Origin: an uncultured Silvanigrella sp.
GTDB taxonomy: Bacteria > Bdellovibrionota_B > Oligoflexia > Silvanigrellales > Silvanigrellaceae
DNA: 32,012 nucleotides
NCBI GenBank assembly: GCA_903932045.1
Contig: CAIZES010000178.1
Coordinates: forward strand, 1 to 32,012
Direction: 5' to 3'
The translations under genes and the position numbers were made by a program. Below are positions 2,962 to 31,288 of the stretch, piece by piece; position 1 is the stretch's first letter; each line of letters starts with the position of its first letter. Below the pieces are notes generated by a model. It saw only the letters and a list, made by a program, of their open reading frames with translations. It was not told the origin of the DNA and made no database searches.

Positions 2962-2964
2962 GTT

Positions 2965-5282: not shown

Positions 5283-5382
5283 GACTTTGCCTCCACTTTT
5301 GCTGAGGCTACAGTTTAAACCGCTCAAAACCGGGAGGGGAATTCTAGTTGTCGTCGGAGGGAGTTATAATTGACGTTCGCCA

Positions 5383-5473: not shown

Positions 5474-5484
5474 GAGGGTGGCAC

Positions 5485-7053
5485 ATGACTGAAAAAGAGG
5501 AAGCTGCAGTGCGTAGAAATTGGAAAACATGGACAGCAACTTTGTCTGTTGCAGCCTCCTTCTTCATGGGTTGTGGCACGTGGATTGGAAATCCGAAAGG
5601 CTCCTCGTCGCCCCCAACAGGAGGGGGATCGTCAGGATCTGGTTTCCCCGTCGACCTCATGCTGTCTTCGCCGACCGGGCAAGAAACTGCGGTTGGTCTC
5701 TCCCTGGCTGCAGCGCCCGTGAGTCAATACAAAGCCAGGAAAGAAAAGCTGTCGGCGCTCTTGAATAGCAAGGTCAAGAGCGAGTGCACGTTCGATTTGA
5801 AAATCGAAAGGGATGTTCAGAACGTGTCTTGTTTTGGACCTGAACTATTCTATCGTCACCATCCGGATGGAACGGATCGGAACCATGAGGTCGACCCTGC
5901 GACGGGGCTCTATTCATTGCCGCCTGGCGACATTGGCATCGCCAGTGCGTTGATGCCCGGCACAGGAGAGGCCTGTTCGTCAGCTCAACTCAACCAAAAA
6001 GTCGAAGGGATAGCGAGTCAGGTCAACAGCCTTATCTATTCTTTGGCTGCTGTTCATTGCGTGGCCAACAGTTCTGGGAAAAGTCTTCCCAAAGTGGGCG
6101 CAAAGCTCGACCTGACGAAAGAAACGACCGCGGCCTTCGCGAACAACCGAACGGGACTGAGTATTGTTGAAGCGTGGATCTCCCACGTGGCATCGACGGA
6201 AGCCGGCAAGACGGTGTACGAAACTCAGATTCGAGGCTCCTCCGACTCAAAATCGATCACAATATCTTTGAAACACGAGGAAAATGACGCAAAGAATCTC
6301 ACCTATCATGGGAAACTGACGTACACAATTTCCAGTCCCACCGATTCGGACACCAGTCGTTGTCCGCAGGGGGATAGCGGAAAGATGGATGCGACTTCCA
6401 TCACCTACCAGAAGGTGGGTGAGAGTGTCTTGATGCTGGAATTAAAGAGCGCAAAGTATTGCAACCAGCATGCAGATCCTTATGTCAGCGCGGTCGATCA
6501 TACCGTGGATCCTGCCAAGAAATTCAGTGGTGACGCTACGAATGGCTGGTTCAGTCATTTCAACTACGCGCTCTTCAACCTGAATACAGCGACGGACGAA
6601 GGCGACTTTCAATTTGCTTGGCAGGCAGATCCTTCGGATTTGCAGAGTCGCTCCATCAATGTTTCGATCGGTAAGGAAGGCGAGGCATTGCTCGGGACAA
6701 CGTACGTGGGTTTTGGTCCCGACGTGGCCGAACTCAATCCAGGCCAAGTGACGGGAATGATCTGCAACTGGGGCGGACCTGCTCATGACCGAACGGTGCG
6801 GCCCTTCGCTCAACGACAAATTCTGAGAAGGGAGCCTGGTGCGCTTCTTTTCTTGCCGACCGAAAGCAATATCGGATACGCGCCCACCAACAGCTGCGAG
6901 TATGTTGCGGGTTCACAGACTCCTGGCTTTGAATGGGGAACCTCGGCGAGTGTCTCGGGCGAGCATGCAACACAGATGAATGAACTGAGTGACGTCAGTG
7001 CAGGCCTTGTGGGCATCACGGTACCCAAGCAGCCCAACGATATCGAGCATTGA
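5485..7053 (+). CDS. Lipoprotein B1 (unknown function)
   Basis: A 522-residue predicted lipoprotein, 11 bases after the regulator 1 stop, so originally in one operon with it. The start is preceded by GAGAGGGTGG. The signal sequence ends in the lipobox FMGC with Cys 30, followed by GTWIGNPKG and a Pro/Ser/Gly linker. The rest is rich in beta-type sequence with scattered Cys residues (SECTFDL, VSCFGPE, AVHCVAN, KYCNQHADPY, ICNWGGP, NSCEYVAG) suggesting a disulfide-stabilised extracytoplasmic domain. It is the intact homologue of the broken gene at 11116-14117, with long identical stretches. Because IS21 separates it from the original promoter, its present expression is uncertain. No known domain was recognised. 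Confidence 0.85.
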   Translation: MTEKEEAAVRRNWKTWTATLSVAASFFMGCGTWIGNPKGSSSPPTGGGSSGSGFPVDLMLSSPTGQETAVGLSLAAAPVSQYKARKEKLSALLNSKVKSECTFDLKIERDVQNVSCFGPELFYRHHPDGTDRNHEVDPATGLYSLPPGDIGIASALMPGTGEACSSAQLNQKVEGIASQVNSLIYSLAAVHCVANSSGKSLPKVGAKLDLTKETTAAFANNRTGLSIVEAWISHVASTEAGKTVYETQIRGSSDSKSITISLKHEENDAKNLTYHGKLTYTISSPTDSDTSRCPQGDSGKMDATSITYQKVGESVLMLELKSAKYCNQHADPYVSAVDHTVDPAKKFSGDATNGWFSHFNYALFNLNTATDEGDFQFAWQADPSDLQSRSINVSIGKEGEALLGTTYVGFGPDVAELNPGQVTGMICNWGGPAHDRTVRPFAQRQILRREPGALLFLPTESNIGYAPTNSCEYVAGSQTPGFEWGTSASVSGEHATQMNELSDVSAGLVGITVPKQPNDIEH

Positions 7054-7070: not shown

Positions 7071-8711
7071 TCAGACTGCCTGCGGAGGAGGTTTTGTGCC
7101 AGAAGCATCGCAGGGGAGGGCGTCATCGGGAAAAAGCTGGAGATTGATTTGAACAATGCGATGAGGAGCGGAGACCTGTGACTCCCTGTGGAGGAGTCTT
7201 TCCGCCAGGGAAAAGAGTGCATCTTTTGCCGATGGAATATCATCAGATCCAATCGAAATATGCAGAGCTCGAAAGTCCGTAACGGGATCGTCGAACTCTT
7301 CGAGCGCCCTGATCGTGCTGAACAGAATGTCTTCGTGAAACCGCACGATCGTTTCTCCTTCGATTTCGGTACTCGTTCTAACGGTGTTTGCGGAACGCCT
7401 GTAGCTGCCGCTTTCCTGGTGAAATTCAAGGAAACCTGTTTCGACGAGATTATGCAGGGTTTTCTTGATGGCTTGAACTCCCACGGAAAAAGACAAGGCC
7501 TCGCATATCCATTCCGGATCACCGCGAAAGTGAGGAAGGGCAACCATTTCTCGGAGAACGCTGCTGAGCCAGGAAGGTGTGGCGGCAGAAATTGTTGTGA
7601 GGTATTTTCTTCTTGCAGAAGTCATTGGCCATTGGATTTGTTCCGGATTTTTTGAAAATGGAAACATCTGCCATGCCAAGACATGACCTCCACGACTGGA
7701 CGGACATCGCTTGTGAGTGAGAAAGAACCTCTCGCGTTCCGACTCCAGTTCCCGTCGTATCTCGGAGACAGCGAGGTCGTCGAGTCCGAAGGTCAGAGAC
7801 GTGACAAGACGATCGGACTCGGAATGCAGTTTCATCGAGCGTCGGCCACCCTCGACAATCGTTCTTTTCCATAGAGATTTGTCGAGTGAAAGGGAGCGCC
7901 AAGGAGCCATCACGCACACATGACCGGAGGGAGCATCACCTTCCGGGCAAAGGCCTCCCAAGAGGACGAGATGCTCGTCGAGAAGCGCTGGGGAAGCTTC
8001 GGCATAGACCGATGCGGTGCCCTGACCGACTGAGATCGCGTAACCAGAACTGCTGGTCTCTGCGAGATCCACGAGACAGTGCCAATCCATCTGTTGGACA
8101 AGCCCTTTGCGGGCCAGATTCTGATTCAATGAATTCTTCGAGTGTACGAGTGCATAGACAATGCGTTTCTTTGCGCTCGATATCACTTTGAATCCGCCAT
8201 GGGTGCCAGAGGTCAGCGACTGGGGAACAGTGCCAACAACTGCACCGTGAACTTCCTCGTTAAAAAGAGAACGACGGAGGAGGAGAGCGTGAATCTCTGC
8301 GGGATTCGCCAAAAAGGTGAAGCCCTGAGCTCTCGCTTCATAATCAACGAAAGTCTGGACCCACCCCACTTTCCAGGAAGCTGCCGTTTGTGCTGTGGCA
8401 GCGATGGTCAAACTTGCCTCGGATTCCGAGGGGAACTCCACATGTAATCCACTCAGGTGAGGACTTCCCTCGACCACGACGACCGCAATTTCCTTTTTGA
8501 CGTCGGTCGCTGTCAGGAGTCTCCAAACCTGCCGAATTCTTCTCTGGTGAACTCGCGACGCGCAAATTTGGGACTCCTTGCTGCAATGACCCCATTTGGC
8601 TTGAACGGCAGCAAGACACTCCTCGGGCGTGCTTTCTCGACAAAGATCGGTTGTCAGGATCAATGTGAGAGTTAGTCTCTCTGCGTCGAAACTGAGTTGA
8701 GATCCGAACAT
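7071..8711 (-). CDS. Gene X: unknown N-terminal domain fused to TIGR02147/DUF4423-type C-terminus
   Basis: A 546-residue protein. The start at 8711 is supported by GGAGG 4 bases upstream; the frame runs further upstream without one. From about residue 340 to the end it resembles the C-terminal half of the TIGR02147 regulators: SWLSSVLREMVALPHF, DPEWICEALSFSV, ALHNL-type helix, a VRFHEDILFSTIRALEE stretch matching QYHRKMLEVAADA, and the tail RIVQINLQLFPDD. The usual N-terminal helix-turn-helix is missing. Instead there are roughly 330 residues of mixed beta/alpha sequence that I do not recognise, with no signal peptide. It lies 98 bp downstream of lipoprotein A2 on the same strand and is convergent with lipoprotein B1, 17 bp away. 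Its job may be to modulate the regulators, but that is a guess. Confidence 0.8.
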   Translation of the reverse strand: MFGSQLSFDAERLTLTLILTTDLCRESTPEECLAAVQAKWGHCSKESQICASRVHQRRIRQVWRLLTATDVKKEIAVVVVEGSPHLSGLHVEFPSESEASLTIAATAQTAASWKVGWVQTFVDYEARAQGFTFLANPAEIHALLLRRSLFNEEVHGAVVGTVPQSLTSGTHGGFKVISSAKKRIVYALVHSKNSLNQNLARKGLVQQMDWHCLVDLAETSSSGYAISVGQGTASVYAEASPALLDEHLVLLGGLCPEGDAPSGHVCVMAPWRSLSLDKSLWKRTIVEGGRRSMKLHSESDRLVTSLTFGLDDLAVSEIRRELESERERFFLTHKRCPSSRGGHVLAWQMFPFSKNPEQIQWPMTSARRKYLTTISAATPSWLSSVLREMVALPHFRGDPEWICEALSFSVGVQAIKKTLHNLVETGFLEFHQESGSYRRSANTVRTSTEIEGETIVRFHEDILFSTIRALEEFDDPVTDFRALHISIGSDDIPSAKDALFSLAERLLHRESQVSAPHRIVQINLQLFPDDALPCDASGTKPPPQAV

Positions 8712-8809
8712 GCATCCTCCAAATTCTCGACTACGAGAAGTGTAGATCGTTGTCGCCAACAAATCCACTTGGTGAATTGAGGACTGGAAGATGGGGCAGG
8801 ACAATTGAC

Positions 8810-9838
8810 TTACGGTGCCTGAGTCACCACCGCTGGACACGCTTCGCTTTCGGTCGGGTCACCGAGACTTGCCTTTGGCGTGACGCCCACACCCAAAGCC
8901 TGCAAGCGGGCGTAGGCTTCTGCCGTTGCAGTCGCATCATAGTCAGTGACTCCCCCAATCGCACGCGACTTGCAGAACTCCGGCGCATCTTCGGCAAACG
9001 TGGCGGCGCATCCGGTGGCACCCTTTCGATAGCTCACAAACTCACCGCTGTTCCCGTCGGACGAGAGTTGCCCCAGAATATATCCATCTGCATCTTCAAC
9101 GCGCGCAGCCAAATCGCCACTGAACCAGTCCTCAACCCCACTGAAGGTGAATTCGCCTGCAGCGCTCTCCCTGGCCACAAACAGATCGGCCAGATTGCTG
9201 CCGGCTTCGCCAGCGGGAGACTTGTCCTTTTCACCGAAGAACTTTTGTGTGAACGTTTTGCCCGCGTCCGTTTCGGAATAGACCATCAGGATGCTGGAGG
9301 TCTCGGGCTGTGGCTTGTAGCGCTGATTCCGGAATGAGTAGATGTTCTTGCCATCCTCGCTCCATTTGACGACCATGTGCAGACTGCCCTTTTCACAAAC
9401 AACGAGCTTGTGGTTGTATGTGCCATCGTCAATGGCGGCGAGCGATCCGCTCTTGTCCTTGTTCGGTCCTTTGCCCGTGAACTCGCCAACCTCGCTGAAC
9501 TCGCCCTTCCACTTAACCATGTCTGCATTGAGTTTTGTAATGCGATCATTAACGCGTTCACGCGTATCTGTCAGAATATCAGCCTTGGGAACCGGCGAGG
9601 AATCCGGCGTGGGAGAGGCCGCGAGAAAAGCGGCAGGATCGGCATCATCAAGTCCAAAACTCAAGGAACTCGCAGAACCCGGAAGCAGAAAGTTGATTGA
9701 GGGAATGACAAATTCACTGCTGGCGCTTTTTGCACCACTGACCACGTTCTGGGCGTTCTTCTTGCCCGCAGCGGCACCACACGCGCCAAGAGCGATCGTC
9801 ATTCCCGTCACCACTAATGTCCGACAAAGCTTGAACAT
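8810..9838 (-). CDS. Lipoprotein A2 (unknown function)
   Basis: A 342-residue paralogue of lipoprotein A1. The start at 9838 has ACGGAGGTG upstream in the same position as in copy 1; the frame continues to 10012 without support. MFKLCRTLVVTGMTIALGAC gives a signal peptide and lipobox GAC with Cys 20. A Pro/Ser/Ala-rich linker (PTPDSSPVP) is longer than in A1, accounting for most of the extra length. The central domain (EFTGKGP, CEKGSLHMVVKWSEDGKN, SETDAGK, FSGVEDWFSGD) and the Cys pattern match A1. It diverges from regulator 2 across a region resembling that of copy 1 and probably forms an operon with gene X downstream. Confidence 0.85.
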   Translation of the reverse strand: MFKLCRTLVVTGMTIALGACGAAAGKKNAQNVVSGAKSASSEFVIPSINFLLPGSASSLSFGLDDADPAAFLAASPTPDSSPVPKADILTDTRERVNDRITKLNADMVKWKGEFSEVGEFTGKGPNKDKSGSLAAIDDGTYNHKLVVCEKGSLHMVVKWSEDGKNIYSFRNQRYKPQPETSSILMVYSETDAGKTFTQKFFGEKDKSPAGEAGSNLADLFVARESAAGEFTFSGVEDWFSGDLAARVEDADGYILGQLSSDGNSGEFVSYRKGATGCAATFAEDAPEFCKSRAIGGVTDYDATATAEAYARLQALGVGVTPKASLGDPTESEACPAVVTQAP

Positions 9839-9876
9839 GGAACACCTCCGTTCAAAAATCGTGTCAACTCCGCCAA
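9836..9876 (-). promoter_or_regulatory. Conserved leader of lipoprotein A2 (copy 2)
   Basis: Identical over 41 bases to 1445-1485 upstream of lipoprotein A1, while the flanking intergenic sequence differs at many positions. Contains the ribosome binding site and TTGACACGATTTTTGAACGG just before it on the minus strand. Confidence 0.55.
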
Positions 9877-10162
9877 CCATCACCTCAACCGCGGTGAAGT
9901 GGCACCCGCGAGGGGAGGTTTCTTTCTCTCCCCTCACTTTACTGTACGGAACTTGTGCCTGGCACTTTAATTTGGCTTGCAACATACCAATACAACGACC
10001 AATAATTTTCAAAGTTACAAAGGAGGAATCGTGGTCCGCACCCGAGTTTGTCAGGTGCCAACAATTATTGATAAAAGCAGATGAGGGTGCGCACCACGCA
10101 GATGGCGTCTCGCCTCATCACGCTTATCTACCGGTGATCGCAAGTGCTTTTACTGCTCACTC

Positions 10163-10199
10163 AATACATTCTATAAAGATCCGTTCATACAAATAGGGG
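10163..10199 (+). promoter_or_regulatory. Likely promoter of TIGR02147 regulator 2
   Basis: TATAAAGATCCGTT (-10-like TATAAA at 10172-10177) with the following CAAATAGGGG matches the block upstream of regulator 1. No clear -35 is seen. Confidence 0.5.
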
Positions 10200-10230
10200 A
10201 GAGGGAAGCGCCCTCAGGAGGACCAACGCC

Positions 10231-11103
10231 GTGACGACCAAACCACTCGCGCAACTGAAACAAGCCGCCGCAAAGAACAAGGTCGACACATTTTTCGACT
10301 ACCGAGACTATCTCAAGCAAATCTATCTCACTGTCAAAGCGAAGGACCAAGGCTATTCCTGGCTGAAGTTCGCATCTGATCTTGGTTTTTCCGCAACGAA
10401 TGTGGTCCGCTTGATCGTCATTGGCAAGCGACATCTCCCAAGCGAGGCCGCAGAGCAGGTGGGTACCCATCTTGGCCTGGCAAACCACGAACGTCGCTAT
10501 TTTCTCAACCTCGTGGCATACAACGAAGCGCACACCTCCGCCGAGCAAGAGCAAAGCCTGGGTCGCCTGGTCGCAAGCAAGCAGGCTCTGCTGGATTCAA
10601 GTCCCGACAGTCAGGCTCTCCGCTACTATTCCAAGTGGTATTTTCCGGTCATCCGGGAAATGACCAGACTCGGCGGATTTCAGGCCACCTTTGAGTGGGT
10701 CAGTCGTCACCTTTTTCCATCATTACGGCCGGCCCAATTTAATGAGGGCATCGAACTTCTGCGAGAAATGAAGCTCCTTGAAGTGGAGCCAGTCACGGGG
10801 ATCGTCAAGTTTCTCGACAATCGCCAAATGGTTCTCCCCACGGACGCGACAGCCGGCAACATCGCCATCAGTCAATATCATCGAAAAATGCTTGAAGTGG
10901 CGGCCGAAGCGGTGTTCAAAATCCCAGATTCGGATCGCGAAATGAATGCCTTGACTCTGTGTCTGTCCGACGAATCGTTCGCCAAACTGAAGCAGCGAAT
11001 TCTCGATGTGTGTGCCGAGGCCATGCAGACAGAAAGCGAACCGCAGGCACGAGAGAGACTTGTTCAGCTCAATGTTCAACTATTCACTCTGTCCAAGAAA
11101 TGA
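10231..11103 (+). CDS. TIGR02147-family regulator, copy 2, intact
   Basis: A 290-residue protein with a GTG start after CAGGAGG. The N-terminal third (DYRDYLKQIYLTV, GYSWLKFASDLGFSATNVVRL, GKRHLPSEAAEQV, NHERRYFLNLVAYNEA) is the helix-turn-helix-like region of the TIGR02147 family. The C-terminal DUF4423 part has SKWYFPVIREMTRL, FDNRQMVLPTDATAGN-type sequence, SQYHRKMLEVAAEAV and the tail RLVQLNVQLF. The family is abundant in Fibrobacter and Bdellovibrio and is thought to be regulatory; targets are generally unknown. It is divergent from lipoprotein A2 and 12 bp upstream of lipoprotein B2, so it most likely controls this module. As the only undamaged copy in the element it may now serve both modules. 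Confidence 0.88.
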   Translation: MTTKPLAQLKQAAAKNKVDTFFDYRDYLKQIYLTVKAKDQGYSWLKFASDLGFSATNVVRLIVIGKRHLPSEAAEQVGTHLGLANHERRYFLNLVAYNEAHTSAEQEQSLGRLVASKQALLDSSPDSQALRYYSKWYFPVIREMTRLGGFQATFEWVSRHLFPSLRPAQFNEGIELLREMKLLEVEPVTGIVKFLDNRQMVLPTDATAGNIAISQYHRKMLEVAAEAVFKIPDSDREMNALTLCLSDESFAKLKQRILDVCAEAMQTESEPQARERLVQLNVQLFTLSKK

Positions 11104-11622
11104 GGAGGTGGTGTCATGACCGAAAGAGCAGAAGCCGCAGTATGGAAACAGTGGAAAACCTGGACAGCAACCTGGTTTGCTGCAGCCTCCTTGTTCATGG
11201 GCTGTGGCACTTGGATTGGAAATCCGAAAGGGTCGGCATCCTCACCCACGGGCGGAGGTTCAGCGGGCAACGGCTTTCCCGTCGATCTCATGTTGTCATC
11301 ACCCACTGGGCCGCAGGAGAATTCTGCCAGTCTCATGCTGACCAGCGCACCCATGAGTCCCTACAAGAACAGGACTGAGAAACTCGCAACACTCCTGCAC
11401 AGCAAAGTTGGCACCGAGTGCAGGTTTGACTTGAAAATCGAGCGCAATATTCAAAACGTGGCCTGCTTTGGTCCCGAGATCTACTATCGCCACCACCCCG
11501 ATGGCACCGATCGCAGCCGGCTGGTTGATGCCACCACAGGTTTGTATGCGCTGCCACCGGGAGACGTGGGGATGGCCAGTGCGGTGATGCCCAGCACTGG
11601 CGAAGCCTGTTCATCGGCTCAA

Positions 11623-11630
11623 CTCAACCA
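11623..11630. repeat. ISKra4-like target duplication, left copy (CTCAACCA)
   Basis: CTCAACCA occurs here and at 13053-13060, on either side of the element. Lipoprotein B1 has a single copy of the equivalent sequence. Confidence 0.9.
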
Positions 11631-13052
11631 GGGTGCGGCCTCCATTTGATGTCCGGACCTGAACACGAACGGAGCCCTACACATGTTGAATGCTATCGGA
11701 TTCATGCCACAAGAGGAAAGCCGCTGCTGTCAATTTTTTGCCAGAACTGTGCCCACCGTCCCGTGGTATACGAAAGGGTTCTCAAACTCAGAACAGCCGC
11801 AGCCCCCTGCTCTTTCCATCGCATGCCAGAGCCACAGAGCCGCTGTTTGACGATCACCTTGCATGCAGCCTCGGTGATTCCTGAGCCGATGGGAAGGTTT
11901 TCTTCGACGTGTTCAGCATAATTCATGCGCTTTTTCTGATTTGTAAAATAGGTGATGCAGTCATCGAGCAGTTCCCGGCGCTCTTGGCCGATGTGGCGAC
12001 TCCGAAGCTCCTTCATTTCGCGGAGAAGGGCTGCTGGGCCTGTTCGGTTGTGTTTGAGCCGATGGCAAGCATCATCCAGCCAAGCTTTTCGCTCCTCGGG
12101 ACTCTTGAAGAACACCGCATCGGCCGCCTTTGTGAGGTACTCACTGGCGTGATAGAAGTCGAGCAGTTGACGGTCTGTGTGCTTCTCAAGAAATGGCCAG
12201 TTATCCCTCGCACCGTCGGCCAATCCAATGAATATCGCTCTGGGAAATAGGGCATGCACGCGAGAAATTTCTCGTTCCATTCGCTCGATGAAGGTCTCTT
12301 TCCCATACTCTGGGGTGGCGCCCAGGTAGATGGTATGCAGCCTCTCCCCATCATTGGAGTGCAAAGCAATCGTTCCTACCATCGCCTGGCGCCAGCCATC
12401 TTTAACAGTCAGCATGCACGTGCCATCAATACCTATGCTCACCGCATTGACAGGTTGCTCCTGAGTTGGAGTCTCGTACTCCCAGCTCTCTTCGGTTGCT
12501 TGCGCAACTGCTGCAACAGCATCGGCAATGTTCTGAACAAATGAACGGGCAACTTTGCGCCCATGGTTCTCTTCCAGATCAATGGTGACCCGCCCTGCTC
12601 CATGCTCGGCATACTTATGGGACAGCTGCTTGGCAAACAGTGGAGTCGCCGAAAGGAGTATTCGTGCGTTTTGCTCCAATGGGCAGAAGGTTTTTCCTCC
12701 CTTGCCGGTCTGATAAACGTGACGTGGCACGGTCACTTCACCATAGGGGGTCTGATACGCGCAGTCGACCTCGCCCTTCGAGGTCATCGACACACTCCCA
12801 AACCGTATCGGCTCACCGGAGGTGTCGAAGCGCTTGAGAAGAATCTCCGTGGCCGTAACACCTGCCTCGTTCAGGGCGGACTGAATTCGCGCCTCGGACT
12901 CCAGCATTGATGAGTTCCATTCGATCTCTATCTGGACGACTGTCTTCTTTGACGATGATGATATGATTCGAGCAGTCATTGCGCCTCCTGCAGAAGTGCA
13001 GCAGGCTATCATGAGATTTACTGGAAGTCTACATCAAATGGAGGTCGCACCC
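11631..13052. mobile_element. ISKra4-family-like insertion sequence, 1422 bp
   Basis: Terminal inverted repeats of 22 bp (11631-11652 and 13031-13052) start GGGTGCG and end CATTTGATGT, with one mismatch. The element is flanked by an 8-bp direct repeat and encodes a single intact transposase on the minus strand. Family placement rests on the transposase C-terminus. Confidence 0.9.
11702..12979 (-). CDS. ISKra4-family transposase
   Basis: A 425-residue transposase. The start at 12979 has AGGAGG 4 bases upstream (CGCA spacer). Likely catalytic residues are Asp in SIGIDGTCM, Asp in IGLADGARDNW and Glu in LPIGSGITEAACK. The C-terminal block KQRLCGSGMRWKEQGAAAVL with TTGRWAQFW is typical of ISKra4-type enzymes. 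The reading frame is whole, so the IS may still move. It is oriented opposite to the lipoprotein gene it interrupts. Confidence 0.9.
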   Translation of the reverse strand: MTARIISSSSKKTVVQIEIEWNSSMLESEARIQSALNEAGVTATEILLKRFDTSGEPIRFGSVSMTSKGEVDCAYQTPYGEVTVPRHVYQTGKGGKTFCPLEQNARILLSATPLFAKQLSHKYAEHGAGRVTIDLEENHGRKVARSFVQNIADAVAAVAQATEESWEYETPTQEQPVNAVSIGIDGTCMLTVKDGWRQAMVGTIALHSNDGERLHTIYLGATPEYGKETFIERMEREISRVHALFPRAIFIGLADGARDNWPFLEKHTDRQLLDFYHASEYLTKAADAVFFKSPEERKAWLDDACHRLKHNRTGPAALLREMKELRSRHIGQERRELLDDCITYFTNQKKRMNYAEHVEENLPIGSGITEAACKVIVKQRLCGSGMRWKEQGAAAVLSLRTLSYTTGRWAQFWQKIDSSGFPLVA

Positions 13053-14118
13053 CTCAACCAAAAAGTGGAAGGGATCGCCAGTCAGGTCAACAGCCTCATC
13101 TACTCTCTCGCGGCCGTCCACTGCGTGGCAAACAGCTCGGGCAAGTCACTGCCCAACGTGGGTGCGAAGCTCGACCTGACCAAAGAAACAGCGGCGGCCT
13201 TTGCGAACAACAGAACCGGACTCACCATAGCGGAAGCTTCGATCTCCCACATGGCCTCCACCGAAGTTGGCAAGACGGTGTACGAAACTCACATCAAGGG
13301 AAACTCTGACTCTAAATCTATCACGATCTCCTTGAAGCACGAGGCCAATGACACAAATAATCTGACCTATCACGGGAAGCTGACCTACACGGTGTCAAGT
13401 CCCGCCGATACGGACGCCAATCGCTGTCCCGAAACGGCGAGCGGGAAGATGGATGCCACCTCCATCGTCTATCAAAAAGTGGGCGAGAATGGTCTGATGC
13501 TGGAATTGAAGAGCGCGAAATACTGCAACCAGCATGCCGATCCCTATGTCAGCAGCAGCGACCACACCGTCGATCCAGCCAAGACGTTCATCAGCGACGC
13601 GACGAATGGCTGGTTCAGCCACTTCAACTATGCCTTGTTTAACTTGAACACAGCCACCGACGAGGGCCAATTTCAATTTGCGTGGCAGGGAAATCCAGCG
13701 GATTCACAAACTCGGACCATCAACATGTCTGTCAATCAGGAAGGTGAGGCGCTGACAGCAACGGCCTACGTGGGCTTTGGACCCGATGTCGCCGCCACCA
13801 GTCCCGGCCTCGTCACTGGCATGATCTGCAACTGGGGAGGACCTTCTCGCGATCGCACCCTCCTGCCCTTTGCCCAGCGACAAATCCTGAAGCGAGAACC
13901 CGGCGCACTTCTTTTTGTACCGGTCGAAAGCAATATCGGCTACGCGCCAACCAACAGCTGTGAATATGTTGCGGGTTCAAAAGTCCCCGGGTTTGAATGG
14001 GGGACGTCAGCGAATATCTCTGGCGAACACGCGACCCAGATGAACGAACTGAGTGACATCAGCGCCGGGATGACAGGCATCACGGCACCCGAACAACCCA
14101 GCGACATCGAGCACTGAC

Positions 14119-15762: not shown

Positions 15763-16125
15763 TCAATCGCTCTTGGGCGAAAAGCCCTTGGAGTCACTTA
15801 GACCCAGCGTGAGGTTTGGAGTGAGTCCGAGAACGACTGCAACGGCGGCCAGTGTATCGAGAGTGAGGTTGGCATCACCTCTGAGAATCTTGGCGGTGGT
15901 TGCCGAACTCATGTGGAGACGACGGGTGAGTTCGTTGAAGCCAATTTTCTCCCGAGCCATATAGGTAGCAACGGATCTTGAGATGGTCTCCGATAGGCTT
16001 CTGCGGATTTCTGCGCGAAGGATAGCCCTTCTGTGGATATCTTCACGTTCTTGAGGAGAGAAGACCTCTTTTTCGACATCATCGAGATCTTGGAACTTCG
16101 CGAGTTCTTCCTGCGTGAATTTCAT
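15763..16125 (-). CDS. HigA-like antitoxin (XRE family)
   Basis: A 120-residue protein beginning directly after the toxin stop (TAA then ATG), with GGAGG inside the toxin gene as its ribosome binding site. A C-terminal XRE-type helix-turn-helix is seen in GFNELTRRLHMSSATTAKIL and DANLTLDTLAAVAVVLGL, approximately residues 60-110. The N-terminal part is acidic and charged, suited to toxin contact. Toxin-first order with a helix-turn-helix antitoxin is the HigBA arrangement. It should neutralise the toxin and repress the operon. Confidence 0.85.
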   Translation of the reverse strand: MKFTQEELAKFQDLDDVEKEVFSPQEREDIHRRAILRAEIRRSLSETISRSVATYMAREKIGFNELTRRLHMSSATTAKILRGDANLTLDTLAAVAVVLGLTPNLTLGLSDSKGFSPKSD

Positions 16126-16494
16126 TTACGTTTCCTCCGTCATCCGCAGGCGCTTTTTCGCAAGCTCGATGTCACGCCGTTGCGAACTCTTGTCACCTGC
16201 CGCGACGACCACGCAAATGACGCGGCCATCGAAGCCAAAATACACACGGAACCCAGGACCAGGGCTCCGCAAGTCCCTGCATTCCCATAAGGCGCCCACG
16301 AGATGTTTGAACACCTTCGGGCGGGCCAAGGGTCCATCGATAGCGAGATCGCGGAGAAGATCGCCCAAGTAAATTCGGTCTCTGGTCTCAAGGCCCTTCA
16401 TCCACTCTGCAACGGGTTTTTCGCAGGTCTCACTAACCCAGAACAGTACCCGGAAGTTAGTCTCGCCCACCGCTCCTATCCTCCTCTTCGGCAT
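16126..16494 (-). CDS. HigB/Gp49-like toxin (RelE superfamily)
   Basis: A 122-residue protein of the phage Gp49-like/DUF891 type: VAEWMKGLETRDRIYLGDLL, then KHLVGALWECRDLRSPGPG, FRVYFGFDGRVICVVVAAGDK and a terminal basic helix (DIELAKKRLRM). Members are ribosome-dependent mRNA interferases. It is first in a two-gene operon with the antitoxin, next to the resolution site of the transposon, a common position for toxin-antitoxin passengers in transposons. The start has only a weak ribosome binding site, which would keep the toxin dose low. Confidence 0.82.
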   Translation of the reverse strand: MPKRRIGAVGETNFRVLFWVSETCEKPVAEWMKGLETRDRIYLGDLLRDLAIDGPLARPKVFKHLVGALWECRDLRSPGPGFRVYFGFDGRVICVVVAAGDKSSQRRDIELAKKRLRMTEET

Positions 16495-16512
16495 CGCTTT
16501 AGCTTACTAAAG

Positions 16513-16527
16513 TACTTTCGTAAAGTA
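16513..16527. promoter_or_regulatory. Palindrome TACTTT-CGT-AAAGTA, likely HigBA operator
   Basis: A perfect 6-3-6 inverted repeat lies 19 bases upstream of the toxin start, where an antitoxin operator is expected. It also abuts the recombination site at 16540, so repression and recombination could influence each other. The function is inferred. Confidence 0.5.
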
Positions 16528-16539
16528 AAGCAGACATCC

Positions 16540-16643
16540 GAAAGTACACATAATAGCCCTTATGTGTACTTTCCGTCCCCTTTCAGCTACATTATGTGCA
16601 CCAATGATGGGTCCCAACCCAGGAGGCAAAAGTGCACATAATG
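16540..16643. other. Predicted cointegrate resolution site (IRS/dif-like) of the transposon
   Basis: The core at 16540-16573 is GAAAGTACACATAA, spacer TAGCCC, then the perfect complement TTATGTGTACTTTC (14-6-14). The inner ATAA/TTAT edges and 6-bp spacer match Xer/dif-type cores. Two further related half-sites follow: TTATGTGCAC at 16592-16601 and GTGCACATAA at 16632-16641, each one base different from the core arm. A core plus two accessory motifs next to a tyrosine recombinase gene is the plan of the TnpI/IRS site of Tn4430. The last motif overlaps the recombinase start codon, so binding would also repress its gene. Confidence 0.75.
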
Positions 16644-17555
16644 TTCAAACGGAAAAGCCTGGCGCTCCCGGAGCTGCTCCGAGCGTTCGAGTCTGACCTC
16701 CGGCAAAGCGATGCCGCCGACCGGACGGTGGCAAGCTATCTGTCGGACCTGCGCCTCTTTGCTGCGTGGCTTGAGGGGGTCATCCCTGGCGCGGCAGAGG
16801 ACCTCGATGCCTTCACGCTCCAGCGCTACCGCTCCCACCTCGACCACACCGAAAAACGAGCAACGAGCACCACCAATCGGAAGCTGCAGGCCATCCGCCG
16901 TTTTTGTGCGTGGGCGTACAAAACTGGTGAGATGCTCTCGAACCCCGCTCTCGACGTGAAATTGAAACCCCAGCCAAGGATCTTTCAGCCTCGGAGCCTG
17001 GCAACGCCCGACATTCACAAGGTCTTGACCATTGCGGGGCGCGGATCTCACGGACCGCGCAACTACGCTCTCGTACAACTGATGCTTCAAACAGGGCTCC
17101 GGGTAGGTGAAGTGGAGCGTCTTGTCGTTGACGACATCGCCATTCACGATCGGTCTGGTCACGTGCGGGTGCGAGACGGCAAAGGACGAAAAGAGCGCAC
17201 CGTCCCCTTGAATGCGAGCGTGCGAAAAGCCCTCACAGCCTGGCTCCAGGAGCGAAGTCTCACCGTTCCGCAAGAGCCCTCGGTTTTCGTGACCACGACT
17301 GGCAAAGGACTCAAGAAGCGGGCTCTTCAGAAGGTGATTTCTGAGCTCATGACCACCGCTGGTTGTTCGGCTTCGGCGCACACCCTGCGCCACACCTTTG
17401 CCACGAGGCACTACCAGGATCACGGCAAACTCGTCGAGCTTTCAGGACTCCTCGGCCATGAGTCCCTCAACACGACGGCTCGCTACACTCAGCCAACCCA
17501 CGATGATCTTGCTCGCCAGCTTGAGAAAAGCTCTCTGAATGAATTTGGAGATTGA
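16632..17555 (+). CDS. Tyrosine recombinase, probable cointegrate resolvase of the transposon
   Basis: A 307-residue tyrosine recombinase. The GTG start at 16632 lies 5 bases after AGGAGG; an ATG at 16641 is the alternative. The N-terminal SAM-like DNA-binding domain covers about residues 10-105. The catalytic set is complete: Arg157 (GLRVGE), Lys184 (GKGRKE), His250 and Arg253 (HTLRHTFAT), His276 (LLGHES) and Tyr285 (TARYTQ). It resembles XerC/D-type enzymes. It occupies the place of tniR in Tn5053 and follows directly on a dif-like site with accessory motifs, so resolving TniA-made cointegrates is the most economical role. Its 3' end overlaps the tniQ 3' end on the other strand by 89 bp. 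Confidence 0.88.
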   Translation: MHIMFKRKSLALPELLRAFESDLRQSDAADRTVASYLSDLRLFAAWLEGVIPGAAEDLDAFTLQRYRSHLDHTEKRATSTTNRKLQAIRRFCAWAYKTGEMLSNPALDVKLKPQPRIFQPRSLATPDIHKVLTIAGRGSHGPRNYALVQLMLQTGLRVGEVERLVVDDIAIHDRSGHVRVRDGKGRKERTVPLNASVRKALTAWLQERSLTVPQEPSVFVTTTGKGLKKRALQKVISELMTTAGCSASAHTLRHTFATRHYQDHGKLVELSGLLGHESLNTTARYTQPTHDDLARQLEKSSLNEFGD

Positions 17556-18798
17556 GCGAACCAAGCTCACGAGCATCGGTGGCACCACATCGCAAAATCT
17601 CCGAAGAGGTTGGTTTCTCGTGCTCGCATGAGAATTCTTTATCTATAGCGCTTCTTGGAACATATTTTCCGAGTCCAAATTTCAGTGCACAAAAGAATCG
17701 GCTTCGATTCCAGATCTTGAGAATTTCCTCCTTGGAAAGCTGAGAATCGTGCTCCTTGCTCCCGGAGCGTGAAGAGCGAAGTATATATCTGGCAGCGAAC
17801 TCTTCGTTCATGACAAATATTCCTGGCCATGTAGGTATAAAATCGAGATGTCTCGCAACAAAAAAAGGCAGATGTCGACTCGCATATCGCTTTGGAAGTG
17901 TCATTGCTGAAATGAGTCTTTCTGGCCAATTATAGAGAAGGTGTGCTACACAGTGAGCAACAATGGCACGGTTTCGATAGCCGAACACTTCGATCATTTG
18001 CAGACGTGGCGGTGTCTTGCCAGCGTTTCGCCAAATCACAGCATGTGTTTCTGCGAATGCATCGTCTGGAAAGTTTCGCGAGAGCAGCTCCCGCTGCAGA
18101 GTGCGAAGAAAACGACACCAAACATGAAGCGGAATCCTCTCGTCCCAAAGCTTCGCTATGCCAGTCTGAAGCGCATCGATCGTAATTGCATCGAGCCAAA
18201 TGAGAAGGCGGCCTGCCTCCACTATCTGAAGTGTTGTCAGTGGCGCATCCCAATTGAGATCATTTTCCTCGACGAGGAAACATCTGTGTTTGGGACAAGT
18301 TGTGATAACCGTTGTCCTCCAGAAGAGAAATCTTGAGGAGTTTGTTTCCCTTGCGCAGGCAGGACAAAACTGACGCCATTCATGCCGATTTCGCCAGGGA
18401 AGATAGCGCATCCACGGTTGAGATGTCGCTGGTCCGTCGTCAAATCGGGCTTTGTGAGGCTCCTTTCCGAGAATGGAAAATGCATGCGTGTAGCGAAGAA
18501 CTTCGTCTTTGTTCGTGGGTTCAAGGCCAACGAGAACATCCGGCACGTACGATCTCAGCGTCATGGCGTTGAGAATTCGTGACTCAAACCCTGTACGTTC
18601 CGCAATGCGTGAAATGAGGGTTTTCGATGGCTTTGCATCGATATCCCACCAGGATTTTGGCTTCTCCAGCTCAAACCCGATGAGAAAGAGGTCGTCAATG
18701 CTGATGCGGTAGTACCCTGCGATTCGCGTGAGCCAGGATGTGAGCGATTCGAGCGACGTGGGCTTCGGACACACGGGGAAGCGAGACGCCGGCCTCAC
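17467..18798 (-). CDS. tniQ: TniQ, transposition target/accessory protein
   Basis: A 443-residue TniQ-family protein. GTG start at 18798 overlaps the tniB stop as GTGA. The N-terminal part has the typical ESLTSWLTRIAGYY stretch at residues 17-30. A zinc finger is visible as FCPAC (Cys145, Cys148) with TCPKHRC (Cys168, His171 or Cys173). In Tn5053-type and Tn7-type elements TniQ/TnsD proteins are required for transposition and take part in target choice. The C-terminal end is encoded on DNA that also encodes the end of the tyrosine recombinase on the opposite strand. It is third in the operon tniA-tniB-tniQ. Confidence 0.92.
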   Translation of the reverse strand: MRPASRFPVCPKPTSLESLTSWLTRIAGYYRISIDDLFLIGFELEKPKSWWDIDAKPSKTLISRIAERTGFESRILNAMTLRSYVPDVLVGLEPTNKDEVLRYTHAFSILGKEPHKARFDDGPATSQPWMRYLPWRNRHEWRQFCPACARETNSSRFLFWRTTVITTCPKHRCFLVEENDLNWDAPLTTLQIVEAGRLLIWLDAITIDALQTGIAKLWDERIPLHVWCRFLRTLQRELLSRNFPDDAFAETHAVIWRNAGKTPPRLQMIEVFGYRNRAIVAHCVAHLLYNWPERLISAMTLPKRYASRHLPFFVARHLDFIPTWPGIFVMNEEFAARYILRSSRSGSKEHDSQLSKEEILKIWNRSRFFCALKFGLGKYVPRSAIDKEFSCEHEKPTSSEILRCGATDARELGSLNLQIHSESFSQAGEQDHRGLAECSEPSC

Positions 18799-19715
18799 GC
18801 GAGTTCTCGTTCACATTGCCGTCGTCGCTCCGTCGGTGAATCATAATCAGTGCGTGCCAGTAGTGACATGCCAATTGCCTCTTCTCCGCTCTCGATGGCC
18901 AGAAGAGCCGCACGCGTGAGCAGAGTGGAAATTTCGCCGATGGTTCCCTCTGTTTTTGTGAGGATATAGCGCCGCACTTCCGGAGTGAGAATTTCGGATC
19001 TGCGGCGGAGCGGAAAAATAGCGCGGTAGCTTGCCAAGAGAGACGCATATTCGCTGTCATCTTGCCAGACGGGCAGGATCTGAGGCTCGAAGCGGTTTTC
19101 AAGCTGTGGATCATTTCGGATGGCGAGATAGGCGTCACGAGTGCCAACACAGACGATAGGGATCATGAGTTCGTTCCCAAGAAACCGAAGGAGGTTCAGG
19201 AACTCCATCTGCACGTTGCGACGCCCTGCCAGAACATTGTGAAGTTCATCAATGACAAGTATTTTTGCGCGTACTTTACGCAGCACATCAAGGGCAACTG
19301 CTTCCAGATCGGCAACACTGCACTTTGGCGAGGCTGGCGCCCCGATTTTGTAGAGTAGAAGCGAATAGAATCGCGCGATGGTTGGATCGCTTGGCATCTG
19401 CATGGCAACGACAGGAATGTGTTCGGTTCCCACTTCGCCATGACTTCGCTCAAGCATCATCCGCCGAAATTTTTCGACGATCATGCTCTTCCCATTGTTG
19501 GTCGGTCCAACAATCAGGAGGTTGGGCATCCGAGTTTTCTTTGGGTGGGAATAGATGGACTTGAGCTTTGCCAGTACGGCTTGGGCGCGTGGATAGCCAA
19601 TCCAGCGTTCCGCCAGGATGCGGTTTATGCGTTCTTCAGCAGGGAGCATGGCCACAGGACGAAGCTCTGGCATAAGGTGGTCGAACGAGATGTCGGAAAA
19701 AAGTCCTTCATGCAT
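18795..19715 (-). CDS. tniB: TniB, AAA+ ATPase of transposition
   Basis: A 306-residue AAA+ ATPase, close to the 302 residues of Tn5053 TniB. The start at 19715 overlaps the tniA stop (TGATG), with GAGGAG upstream; the open frame to 19814 lies inside tniA. Walker A is GPTNNGKS at residues 70-77, Walker B is ILVIDELHN at about 150-158, followed by sensor motif VCVGTRDAY and an arginine-rich C-terminal lid. It is the counterpart of TnsC and IstB, bridging target DNA and the transposase. Confidence 0.93.
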   Translation of the reverse strand: MHEGLFSDISFDHLMPELRPVAMLPAEERINRILAERWIGYPRAQAVLAKLKSIYSHPKKTRMPNLLIVGPTNNGKSMIVEKFRRMMLERSHGEVGTEHIPVVAMQMPSDPTIARFYSLLLYKIGAPASPKCSVADLEAVALDVLRKVRAKILVIDELHNVLAGRRNVQMEFLNLLRFLGNELMIPIVCVGTRDAYLAIRNDPQLENRFEPQILPVWQDDSEYASLLASYRAIFPLRRRSEILTPEVRRYILTKTEGTIGEISTLLTRAALLAIESGEEAIGMSLLARTDYDSPTERRRQCERELA

Positions 19716-21421
19716 CACGTCCACTCCTCGATTTCTGAGAACGGCTTGATGGAGGAGACGTCTTCTGGGACTGCTTTGCTCTTCAAACAAGTGGGCGGCT
19801 GGTCTGCTTTCCATATGGCGACAGCGGCATCATGGCGGGCCTCTTTTCTCCTGGTCTGCTTGGTTTTTTTGGAGGAATCCTTGATGAGGCTTCTCATCTC
19901 ATCGAGAGTTTTGAAAAGCACAATTTCATCAACCTCCCGGATTCCTCGTGCTTGAAGTCGTCTCATGCACTCCCTGTGCTCCCAAAGCGTGATAGTTGGC
20001 CGTCCCAGGGTGCGATAGGGAACTTCGAGATACTGTTTTTCCTTGGGGTGGAGAACGTAAATGCGACTCAAATCCCTCGGATCGCGCCGGATGATGAACT
20101 TCGTCTCGGGCTTTCGGTTGGCAATCCATGTGCTTAATGCCATCGAAAAATAGTGGATGTGGTCGATGACAAACCCATCTCTCTGCAAAACCCGCCTATA
20201 CAGGGGCAGAAAATCGATAAGAAATGATCGCTTGTTTGAGATTTGCGTCAAGGTGGATTTCAACTCCGAAATCCCTCGTCTGTAGCGAGCCAGGGGAGGT
20301 TCCGTAATGCCATCATGAACGTCGAGGTGATAGCGCCCAACAATGCAGAGCGTGAGCCACTTTTCGAGTTCCGCGAGTGTCAGCGTGGCTTTGGCGTCGG
20401 AATCGTACTTGCCACGTTCTCTGATGTTGGAGAATGTGGTTCCGGGAAGCGCATGAACCTCCTTCATCAGCGTGCCAATGAGACGTTCGATAATTCCGTT
20501 GAGATTTGGCGCTCCGACGCGTCGCCATTGGATACGAATGCCGTGCTGCTCGCATCCTCGCGTGAGGGCTTCGCTCTTGAATTCCGGTGCACAATCCACC
20601 TGAATGGCCTCAGGCTTTCCTGAAATCGGCCAGAGGCCATCAATTCCTAGGCGCTGAAGGAAATCCTCTTTCTCAAGCGCCGCATGGGTAAGACAAAGAC
20701 CTACGGACACTGCGGACGGCGCATCCAGGGAGAGGCAAAACCCTACAATGCACCGGCTGAAAACATCGATGGCCACCGTGAGCCACGGTCTTCCAATGGA
20801 CTGCCGCTCTTTTTCGTCCACGATAATGATGTCCACCAAGGTGTGGTCCATCATGATGAGTTCCAGTGGCCGCGTGGCGTTGAGGTAGGGACCATGGTTT
20901 GGAGTGAAGGGTCGAGCCGCCTCCGTTCCTTCTCGCTTGGTGATGATTTCGCGCTGACTCAGAAGCGCCAAGCGGTTTCGAATAGTGTTGCGGGCAGGAA
21001 CGGAGATGCCAGCCTCGACACAGCGGCGCCGCACTTCGGTCACTGCGACTTGCAGGTTTGGCTTCTGTTTCTTGAGGTAGTGCTTGCGGAGGGCTTCACT
21101 GATGATCCTGTCGGCATCGGGGGACAGACGCGGCTTTCCCTTGCCCCCAGAGGGATATCGCTCTGCGAGCGAACTCAAAAGTCCTCCCGATTCACGGTAT
21201 CGGGTCACAAGACGGTAGATGGTCCGCCAGGAGCAGCCAAGCTTGCGAGCAGCGGTTTGGGCATCTTTGACGGGCAGGCTTGCCATTCCCAGGAGGGGTT
21301 CGATAACATGGTACCGATCGCGGGCAAGTGCCCAGACCTCTTCGGAGAGTGTGGCGGTGTCGCTGTCAAAAGTGGATGGCAATGGCTGGTCGCCGTCGGG
21401 GATTTCCCCAGTGCTTTCCAT
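19715..21421 (-). CDS. tniA: TniA, DDE transposase of Tn5053/Tn402 type
   Basis: A 568-residue transposase (Tn5053 TniA is 559). I prefer the start at 21421; an ATG at 21466 is possible but lies within the terminal repeat array. N-terminal helix-turn-helix domains (DAQTAARKLGCSWRTIYRLV) bind the end repeats. The catalytic triad is Asp192 (IMMDHTL), Asp276 (QVDCAPEF) and Glu312 (LNGIIERL), with the DD(35)E spacing. A Mu-type C-terminal beta-barrel follows (RRDPRDLSRIYVL). The gene is intact, heads the tniABQ operon and reads inward from the right end. Confidence 0.95.
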   Translation of the reverse strand: MESTGEIPDGDQPLPSTFDSDTATLSEEVWALARDRYHVIEPLLGMASLPVKDAQTAARKLGCSWRTIYRLVTRYRESGGLLSSLAERYPSGGKGKPRLSPDADRIISEALRKHYLKKQKPNLQVAVTEVRRRCVEAGISVPARNTIRNRLALLSQREIITKREGTEAARPFTPNHGPYLNATRPLELIMMDHTLVDIIIVDEKERQSIGRPWLTVAIDVFSRCIVGFCLSLDAPSAVSVGLCLTHAALEKEDFLQRLGIDGLWPISGKPEAIQVDCAPEFKSEALTRGCEQHGIRIQWRRVGAPNLNGIIERLIGTLMKEVHALPGTTFSNIRERGKYDSDAKATLTLAELEKWLTLCIVGRYHLDVHDGITEPPLARYRRGISELKSTLTQISNKRSFLIDFLPLYRRVLQRDGFVIDHIHYFSMALSTWIANRKPETKFIIRRDPRDLSRIYVLHPKEKQYLEVPYRTLGRPTITLWEHRECMRRLQARGIREVDEIVLFKTLDEMRSLIKDSSKKTKQTRRKEARHDAAVAIWKADQPPTCLKSKAVPEDVSSIKPFSEIEEWT

Positions 21422-21432
21422 AGTGTTGATCC

Positions 21433-21560
21433 TGTTGTCAGTCTCTTCTGAACATTCAGGATACATTGACAGCCACTATTGACCAAATCCATTGTCACGC
21501 TCTTCTGACATCCCCCTGAAACTCCAGGACCGCCATTGTCACCGTCTTCTGAAATTCACA
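21433..21560. repeat. Right terminal repeats of the transposon
   Basis: Three TTCAGAAGA-type repeats on the minus strand at 21533-21560 (terminal), 21489-21511 and 21433-21454. The common core is TCAGAAGA, three variable bases, then TGACAA. The innermost copy sits just before the preferred tniA start, so TniA binding could control its own expression. Confidence 0.85.
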
Positions 21561-21565
21561 CCTGG
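21561..21565. repeat. Target-site duplication, right copy (CCTGG)
   Basis: Matches 307-311 exactly. The reconstructed empty site reads GATCCCCTGGGGTACCAC. Confidence 0.9.
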
Positions 21566-21703: not shown

Positions 21704-21733
21704 ACTATCGGATAATGGGTGTTATCCGATAGT
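21704..21733. other. dif-like core recombination site of the flanking element
   Basis: ACTATCGGATAA, spacer TGGGTG, TTATCCGATAGT: a perfect 12-6-12 inverted repeat. The ATAA/TTAT inner edges and the 6-bp spacer match the E. coli dif layout (11-6-11). It lies about 120 bp upstream of a two-gene operon whose second gene is a tyrosine recombinase, so it is probably that enzyme's crossover site. Confidence 0.75.
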
Positions 21734-21851: not shown

Positions 21852-22694
21852 ATGAGCACCCCCCAAAGCCCCCGCGACAGCGAGGTCATCAGCCTCCGCA
21901 CCAGCGCCGATTTCAAAAACCGCCTGCGGGAGTGGGCCGACGGCCGCGGCATCCCGATGTCGAGGCTCCTCGAAGAGATGGGCGAACTCTACGCCCGCGC
22001 CGAAGCGGGAGCCGAACGGAAGCTCTCCGCGGTGGAACTCCTCCTCCGACCCCACTTCCAAACCATCGAGCGGGAGCTGAGCCGAGCGTTTGACGAGTCC
22101 GAAGGGAAGGGGAACCTTTTCCGGGAAGAGGCCGAAGCCCTGCGGGGGGCGGCGGACAGGGCAGAACTTCGTCACAAGGAGGAACGAGCGGCCTGGGAGA
22201 TCGAGCGGCAGAGTCTTAGAGAGAAGGCCGACACGGCAGAACGAACCCTCGCCACCGAGCGGGAAGCTCGGGTGGTGGCCGAGCGCCAGGCCCGCGAGGC
22301 AACCGACACCGCTCGGGCGCTCACGACCTCCCTCTCGGAAGCTCGAAACCAGATTGAGGAGCTGAAGGTGCAGGTCGTGGGACTTCCGGCACTCCGGAAA
22401 GAGCGGGACGCCATGTCTGCCGAGAGCCACAAGTTGGCGGTGGAGCGGGAAAGCGCCGAACTCTCCCTGGCGCGGGTCCGGGAAGATTTCCTCCGCGAGA
22501 AGGAGGCCGTGAAACGGGGGGACGACGCCCACAGCCGCGAACTCCAGGCGATGGAGCGCGAGTTTGAGGCCCGCGTCGCCAAGGCGCAGCTCGACTTAGA
22601 GCGGAGCCACCTGCAAAAAACCGCCGAGCTGGAGCGCCAGATCCAAACCCTCCAAGGGCAGGTGAGCCGCCTGGGTGAAGGGACGACGCCATGA
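21852..22694 (+). CDS. Coiled-coil protein with small N-terminal DNA-binding-like domain (KfrA-like?)
   Basis: A 280-residue protein, start at 21852 after AAGGAG. The first 45 residues (SEVISLRTSADFKNRLREWA, then GIPMSRLLEEMGELYAR) look like a ribbon-helix-helix DNA-binding unit. From about residue 60 to 275 it is a long, highly charged coiled coil rich in Glu, Arg and Ala (AEALRGAADRAELRHKEERA, VVAERQAREATDTARALTTS). Small DNA-binding head plus long coiled coil is the build of KfrA-type plasmid proteins, although sequence identity is not claimed. Its stop overlaps the start of the tyrosine recombinase (ATGA), so both are made together; it may help organise the dif-like site, act in partition, or repress the operon. 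Confidence 0.75.
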   Translation: MSTPQSPRDSEVISLRTSADFKNRLREWADGRGIPMSRLLEEMGELYARAEAGAERKLSAVELLLRPHFQTIERELSRAFDESEGKGNLFREEAEALRGAADRAELRHKEERAAWEIERQSLREKADTAERTLATEREARVVAERQAREATDTARALTTSLSEARNQIEELKVQVVGLPALRKERDAMSAESHKLAVERESAELSLARVREDFLREKEAVKRGDDAHSRELQAMEREFEARVAKAQLDLERSHLQKTAELERQIQTLQGQVSRLGEGTTP

Positions 22695-23677
22695 GCGACG
22701 TGCTCGTGCCGGAGATTGTCGAGAGCACCGGCGCCCTCGTCCACGGCGAGGCGGACGCTCACTTGCAGAGGCTCGTCACCGAGTGGCTTCTCACCTGTGG
22801 GGGCGCCGAAACACGGAAAGCCTACGGGGGAGATTTTCGGGAGTTCTGCGTGTTTGTGGAGAAGGGGTTTGGGCGCATCACCTGGGACGCGGTGACTGGA
22901 ATAGGGGCTTCGGCGTTTGCGGCCTGGCTCAAGAACCGGCTCGAACAGCGCGAGATTGCCCCCGCCACCGCCGCGCGAAAGCTCGCGAGCGTGAGCGCGT
23001 TTTTGGAATTCTGCGTGACCCGAGGCGATCTCCAAAGGAACCCCCTCGCCAAAGTGAAACGCCCCAGGGTTCCCAAGCAACCCAAAAGCGCGGTGCTCTC
23101 GGACGACGAGGTGCGGAAATTGCTTGCGGTGATTGGCGCTGAGCGCGAAGAGGCCGAGAAGGGCAAACTCCTCGCACCCGTCAGGGCGGCGCGGTTTAAT
23201 GAGGTGGTTTTTAAGACACTGCTTGGGACTGGGTGCAGGATTTCGGAACTGTTGGCGCTCCGGGTGTGCGATGTGGAACTCTGTGGGGAGCTGGGGCGAC
23301 TGCATTTTCGGTGCAAAGGATCAGAGGATCACAGCGTCGCTGCGCCACGTTCTCTTGCGGAATGCGTTCTAGAGTTCGCGCGATTCGCTGGTGTGAACGG
23401 TGACAAAGAGTGCGTGTTTTTGTTTGCGAACACCAAGGAGTCGGCAGAAAAACGGATTGGGCGGGAGCTTGTGCGGCTATGCAAGAAGGTTGGGATCGAG
23501 AAAGAAGTGACGCCCCATGTGCTTCGTGCCACCGTGGCCACGTCGCTCCATGAGAAAGGTGTACCCGTGGTACACATCCAGCGGCTCCTCAACCATAAGG
23601 ATATTTCGACGACAGCGGTGTACATTCGGAGAGTTGACACCGAGGGTAATGCGGCATCTTTGGACTTATCTTGGTAG
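22691..23677 (+). CDS. Tyrosine recombinase (XerC/D-like) of the flanking element
   Basis: A 328-residue recombinase with a SAM-like N-terminal core-binding domain (about residues 20-120) and a complete catalytic set: Arg183 (GTGCRISE), Lys209 (RCKGSE), His276 and Arg279 (TPHVLRATVAT), His302 (LLNHKD) and Tyr311 (TAVYIRR). The C-terminal helix after the nucleophile is short. It differs clearly from the transposon recombinase. The dif-like site 1 kb upstream and the coupled coiled-coil gene suggest a resolution or integration unit of a plasmid, integrative element or island. The GC content falls after it. Confidence 0.88.
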   Translation: MSDVLVPEIVESTGALVHGEADAHLQRLVTEWLLTCGGAETRKAYGGDFREFCVFVEKGFGRITWDAVTGIGASAFAAWLKNRLEQREIAPATAARKLASVSAFLEFCVTRGDLQRNPLAKVKRPRVPKQPKSAVLSDDEVRKLLAVIGAEREEAEKGKLLAPVRAARFNEVVFKTLLGTGCRISELLALRVCDVELCGELGRLHFRCKGSEDHSVAAPRSLAECVLEFARFAGVNGDKECVFLFANTKESAEKRIGRELVRLCKKVGIEKEVTPHVLRATVATSLHEKGVPVVHIQRLLNHKDISTTAVYIRRVDTEGNAASLDLSW

Positions 23678-28317: not shown

Positions 28318-28341
28318 TCTCCCTAGCAACTATTATTTGGT

Positions 28342-31275: not shown

Positions 31276-31288
31276 ATTTCAACACTCC

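Follow-up and report, generated by a model that had tools for sequence, protein, structure and literature searches.

The locus described here raises the question of how a transposon of the Tn5053/Tn402 type might resolve its cointegrates when the gene beside tniQ encodes a tyrosine recombinase, rather than the serine resolvase TniR that would act at a res site. The DNA analysed (the 'window', that is, a stretch of 32,012 nucleotides from an uncultured Silvanigrella sp.) had previously been examined in a sequence-only reading, which proposed that it carries a Tn5053-like element into which the TnpI/IRS unit of Tn4430 had been moved. The first part of that proposal was borne out: both ends of a Tn5053/Tn402-like element were located, together with a target duplication, and tniA, tniB and tniQ were identified by Pfam.

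The element extends from position 312 to 21560 (21,249 bp), and is bordered by two identical 5-bp copies of the target duplication CCTGG, at 307-311 and 21561-21565. Its left end (312-358, forward strand) begins with the tip TGTCAATGTCAGAAGA at 312 and contains two TniA-type repeats (320-336 and 342-358), each with one mismatch relative to TCAGAAGA-N3-TGACAA; its right end (21435-21560, reverse strand) contains three repeats of that form (at 21435, 21492 and 21536), and has its tip, TGTGAATTTCAGAAGACG, at 21560. The two terminal sequences, TGTCAATGTCAGAAGA and TGTGAATTTCAGAAGACG, match at 21 of 25 bases, and the left end resembles that of Tn402 and Tn6048, with TGTCATTTTCAGAAGACG occurring in the same place on a Tn6048-carrying plasmid and in similar elements. 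Because both ends were found with CCTGG on either side, the element is delimited, and the presence of the same duplication at both ends further argues against a chimeric or assembly join within it. The window thus contains an intact-looking tniABQ transposon, Tn402/Tn5053-like in type and 21.2 kb in length.

The transposition genes all lie on the reverse strand, and comprise tniQ (17467-18798; Pfam), tniB (18795-19814), which encodes an AAA ATPase (PF05621, E 1.7e-67), and tniA (19715-21466), which encodes a DDE transposase with rve and Mu-transpos_C matches. The TniA protein is 45-53% identical to its nearest relatives, which are Tn6048-type and related TniA proteins. No match to a serine resolvase was found anywhere in the 32-kb window, and it is a tyrosine recombinase that adjoins tniQ, so that the element is better described as Tn5053-like than as a strict member of the tniABQ-res-tniR group.

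That recombinase (16632-17555, forward strand) is a TnpI-like protein of 307 amino acids. Its gene, which the sequence-only reading had placed beside tniQ, lies tail to tail with it, and the two convergent genes overlap by 89 bp at the 3' end of tniQ. The protein matched Phage_integrase (E 1e-33), and all six residues of the R-K-H-R-H-Y catalytic set that the sequence-only reading had attributed to it are present (R157, K184, H250, R253, H276 and Y285). When scored against NCBIfam equivalog models, it reached 178 bits for XerC and 154 bits for XerD, relative to cut-offs of 335 and 330, respectively; the integron integrase model was also matched, again below its cut-off.

Ahead of the recombinase lies a site in three parts, the description of which withstood closer inspection. 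The predicted core recombination site (16540-16573) is a perfect 14-6-14 palindrome (GAAAGTACACATAA-tagccc-TTATGTGTACTTTC) with inner edges ATAA and TTAT; the 32-kb window has just one other perfect palindrome with arms of at least 11 bp and a spacer of 5-8 bp. The core is followed by the two near-identical putative accessory half-sites that had been claimed earlier: GGTGCACATAA (16592-16602, reverse strand), which is inverted and centred +40.5 bp from the centre of the core, and AGTGCACATAA (16631-16641, forward strand), which is direct and centred at +79.5 bp. Each half-site has a 13-bp core (16589-16601 and 16632-16644, respectively) that is the exact reverse complement of the other, which places the half-sites in inverted orientation relative to each other, a feature added by the present analysis. 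The last motif indeed lies over the recombinase start: the second half-site spans one possible start codon, the GTG at 16632, and the first base of the other, the ATG at 16641, falls on its final position. In 20,000 shuffles of the local sequence, a core and two half-sites of the quality seen in the window never occurred at these positions.

Other tniABQ elements, with TniA proteins of about 44% identity or more to that of the window, were compared for the resolvase beside tniQ. A serine recombinase adjoins tniQ in L109, L112 (Tn6048), L115, L116, L117, L122 and L143, and the related elements with a resolvase in that position all encode a serine enzyme, in agreement with the earlier premise that such an enzyme is usual. 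Among the others, L111, L114 and L015 have no resolvase at tniQ, L113 has its serine gene on the other side of tniA, L016 has one 2.7 kb past tniQ, and L121 has a serine resolvase nearby. Among the neighbourhoods examined, L110 and L150 encode tyrosine recombinases elsewhere, and a serine one at tniQ. The check that the sequence-only reading had recommended, a search of other tniABQ elements for a tyrosine recombinase next to tniQ, yielded none in the plasmid neighbourhoods examined or in 19 TniA neighbourhoods (from 399 Pseudomonadota genomes sampled), and the arrangement is accordingly represented by one instance within searches that sampled genomes. In each of two genomes (G059 and G061), a Tn3 element that carries a TnpI relative occurs together with a tniABQ element whose resolvase is of the serine type, which indicates that the two families do meet in one cell.

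The closest relatives of the recombinase are mostly TnpI-like proteins encoded directly 5' of Tn3-family transposases, with up to 46-48% identity among the matches listed, and the best five genome matches among those listed (L028-L032) each have a Tn3 TnpA gene directly 3'. The best plasmid matches (39% identity) are enzymes of Megaera and Legionella plasmids. The gene from Legionella antarctica (L013) is followed directly by a Tn3-family transposase (TnpA), that on one Megaera plasmid (L014) by a DUF4158 protein and a transposase, and that on another (L012) by parA, with no adjacent Tn3 transposase. Two samples of 345 and 399 genomes contained no further close relatives, their matches near 1e-30 being at the level of Xer proteins, and the viral contigs searched contained none. 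In a phylogenetic tree, the window enzyme and eight TnpI-like proteins (L012-L014 and L028-L032) form one clade (93/93; 90 in a quick tree), in which the window enzyme is sister to the Tn3-linked TnpI enzymes and is not nested among them; the direction of transfer can therefore only be inferred. The broader clade also holds enzymes that lack Tn3 linkage (L034, L035 and L108), given which the unit may be of plasmid origin.

It is the geometry of the site that argues most strongly for enzyme and site being a single functional unit of the TnpI/IRS kind. A core followed by an inverted half-site at about +40.5 and a direct half-site at about +79.5 is found at six Tn3-linked relatives and at the unlinked plasmid homologue L012. 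The spacing is identical to the base (+40.5/+79.5), with the same orientations, at L012, L013, L014, L029, L030 and L031, and lies within 2 bp of that in the window at L032 (+39.5 and +77.5); upstream of L028, the closest relative by identity among the matches listed, this geometry was not found. The corresponding stretches of DNA share 31-55% identity with the window, and the half-site sequences differ. Such low identity combined with the same layout indicates that the spacing has been kept while the sequence has changed. In a scan of 1.94 Mb of compared DNA, the layout was encountered at the window and at the loci of these relatives, and otherwise at two low-complexity places.

These results uphold one part of the proposal that a TnpI/IRS unit resides in another transposon family, in that Tn3-linked TnpI relatives share the layout of the site, and revise another, the likeness to the unit of Tn4430 itself. 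The accessory motifs are inverted in the window, as they are in every Tn3-linked relative that could be compared, whereas those of Tn4430 (which was compared by description only) are described as the direct repeats DR1 and DR2 (PMC7157771), and the position of the enzyme as sister to the TnpI proteins of Tn3 elements likewise qualifies that proposal. A search for the terminal repeats of Tn4430 and Tn5401, using a 38-mer, gave no match in the collections searched.

Resolution of cointegrates by a unit of the TnpI/IRS type is the most likely interpretation of this arrangement. TniA, TniB and TniQ would insert the element through a cointegrate pathway, which is to be expected because the scan of open reading frames revealed no nuclease like TnsA; Tn7-like elements without TnsA are taken to form cointegrates when they move, and so to depend on a resolvase (PMC8649781, PMC11406308). 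The TnpI-like recombinase would resolve the cointegrate by strand exchange inside the TAGCCC spacer of the 16540-16573 core, and would also bind the half-sites at +40.5 (inverted) and +79.5 (direct), thereby favouring resolution between directly repeated copies. For the TnpI protein of Tn4430, the accessory motifs have been proposed to give selectivity for directly repeated sites. The element would then be a replicative transposon of the Tn402/Tn5053 type that most likely relies upon this unit rather than upon a serine TniR acting at res, the unit having presumably replaced an ancestral serine resolvase. Autorepression through binding over the start codon, as suggested earlier, is plausible, and in Tn5401 TnpI reportedly modulates its own expression (PMC7157771), but a consensus scan revealed no promoter of the sigma-70 type here.

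Divergent from the recombinase is a toxin-antitoxin pair on the reverse strand, composed of a Gp49/RelE-ParE-type toxin (16126-16494; PF05973) and a HigA-like HTH antitoxin (15763-16125; HTH_26, with TIGR02607 below its cut-off), and preceded by an imperfect palindrome (16496-16531) that is a possible operator. A plasmid enzyme that itself adjoins a toxin-antitoxin pair (L019) was considered as the donor and ruled out, as it falls outside the clade and is not accompanied by the geometry. The cargo includes two diverged copies of a gene set (515-7053 and 8810-14117), in which a small lipoprotein-like gene is accompanied by one for a TIGR02147/DUF4423 protein and by a lipoprotein gene of the CGTWIGNP type; an additional DUF4423 protein is encoded at 7071-8840. 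An IS21-type istB and a probable istA are inserted at 2965-5327, and a lipoprotein gene is apparently split (11116-11649 and 12963-14117) around an open reading frame (11702-13012) that has no Pfam match and is possibly an insertion sequence.

A different explanation is that recombinase, site and toxin-antitoxin pair together form an Xer-like module for plasmid multimer resolution and stability, now carried as cargo and serving the host replicon instead of the cointegrates of the transposon. In a genome of the same bacterial family, a plasmid-like contig carries parA next to the gene of a related tyrosine recombinase (30% identity), and the toxin-antitoxin pair that comes after this recombinase is 33-37% identical to that of the window; the homologue L012 also lies beside parA without a Tn3 transposase. 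The enzyme of the plasmid-like contig, however, falls outside the TnpI clade, and the +40.5/+79.5 layout was not found by the scan in the DNA upstream of it, while the recombinase of the window abuts tniQ, in the usual place of tniR, with no serine resolvase seen in the window; the explanation is accordingly considered improbable. By eye, a core of the form GGATAA-N6-TTATCC can be discerned upstream of the recombinase on the plasmid-like contig (L164:3821-5417), along with a repeat of one of its arms.

Still less probable is the view of the unit as a relic, decayed or inactive, with resolution of the cointegrates left to host recombination. The insertions in both cargo sets (IstAB at 2965-5327, and the split lipoprotein gene at 11116-14117) do indicate an element that is partly disrupted, but the recombinase frame is complete with its six catalytic residues, the core is perfect and both half-sites are intact. 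The recombinase could also be imagined as an integrase or invertase whose substrate is other DNA, in which case the palindrome would be an ordinary operator, given that the enzyme scores against the models for XerC, XerD and integron integrase, though below the cut-off in each case. This appears very improbable indeed, in view of the three-part site of identical spacing ahead of the TnpI relatives of Tn3 elements, and of a core with a 6-bp spacer and flanking half-sites, which is more in keeping with a site of strand exchange than with a simple operator.

Beyond the right end of the element, by 144 bp, lies the second perfect palindrome of the window (12-6-12, ACTATCGGATAA-tgggtg-TTATCCGATAGT, at 21704-21733), followed by a coiled-coil KfrA-like open reading frame (21852-22694) and a second tyrosine recombinase (22691-23677). 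The presence of this palindrome and recombinase by the right end suggests insertion near another recombination site. In the res hunting of Tn402 and Tn5053, it is the outer end that lies nearest the target resolvase gene, whereas here the tniA end faces the flanking recombinase; the idea of an element that hunts for sites of tyrosine recombinases was not adopted, as it is oriented the opposite way to the canonical arrangement, and as L193, a homologue of the flanking recombinase, shows no comparable core. Further along (25585-31867), genes for DUF3780, a DUF1156 methyltransferase and a PLD-helicase stand in a row, and match a PADLOC candidate defence system.

The sequence-only reading had known of no described tniABQ element with such a layout, which holds in part. 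According to Benler 2021 (PMC8649781), the resolvase of elements in the Tn5053 clade can be of the serine or of the tyrosine type, and a 2024 review describes the same alternatives in TnsA-less Tn7-like elements (PMC11406308); at the level of the gene, the swap is thus not new in kind. What was not found described is a defined recombination site for such an element, its exact match to those of Tn3-linked TnpI relatives, and an adjoining toxin-antitoxin pair like that of Tn5401 and TnBth4. The window offers a concrete case, with both ends defined, of transposition genes from one family combined with a resolution unit that agrees with those of another, to the base in the spacing of its presumed protein-binding sites. 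It further offers a recombination site that can be tested for the kind of tyrosine resolvase whose presence in TnsA-less Tn7-like transposons had been predicted on the basis of gene content, and a site geometry that can be used as a search criterion for more such units. The case suggests that resolution units are interchangeable modules between transposon families. A broader proposition, in which the whole cassette (enzyme, three-part site and possibly toxin-antitoxin pair) is portable between replicative transposon families of unrelated mechanism and the element now targets tyrosine-recombinase sites, is regarded as doubtful.

With Tn402, Tn5053 and Tn6048, the element shares its tniA-tniB-tniQ order (the gene order being as in Tn6048), TGTC...TCAGAAGA ends with subterminal repeats, and a 5-bp target duplication; in contrast to their tniABQ-res-tniR arrangement, the gene that converges with its tniQ encodes a tyrosine recombinase, and the accompanying site is IRS-like. 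The tyrosine 'tnsR' of Benler 2021 (PMC8649781) is similarly a resolvase predicted for the cointegrates of a TniA/TnsB element, the Tn5053 clade included, but the part of that account considered here describes neither the recombination sites nor the source of the enzyme, whereas in the window the site is defined. The ATAA/TTAT inner edges and the 6-bp spacer of the core are shared with sites of the XerCD/dif type, from which the window differs in having a single enzyme and two extra half-sites, and in XerC and XerD scores at about half the curated cut-offs. In the TnpI/IRS units of Tn4430, Tn5401 and TnBth4, too, the gene for a tyrosine recombinase is preceded by an inverted-repeat core together with two accessory motifs, and in Tn5401 and TnBth4, as in the window, a toxin-antitoxin pair is transcribed away from the site (PMC7157771); where those units belong to the Tn3 family, the unit of the window is without a Tn3 transposase, and has tniQ, tniB and tniA as its neighbours.
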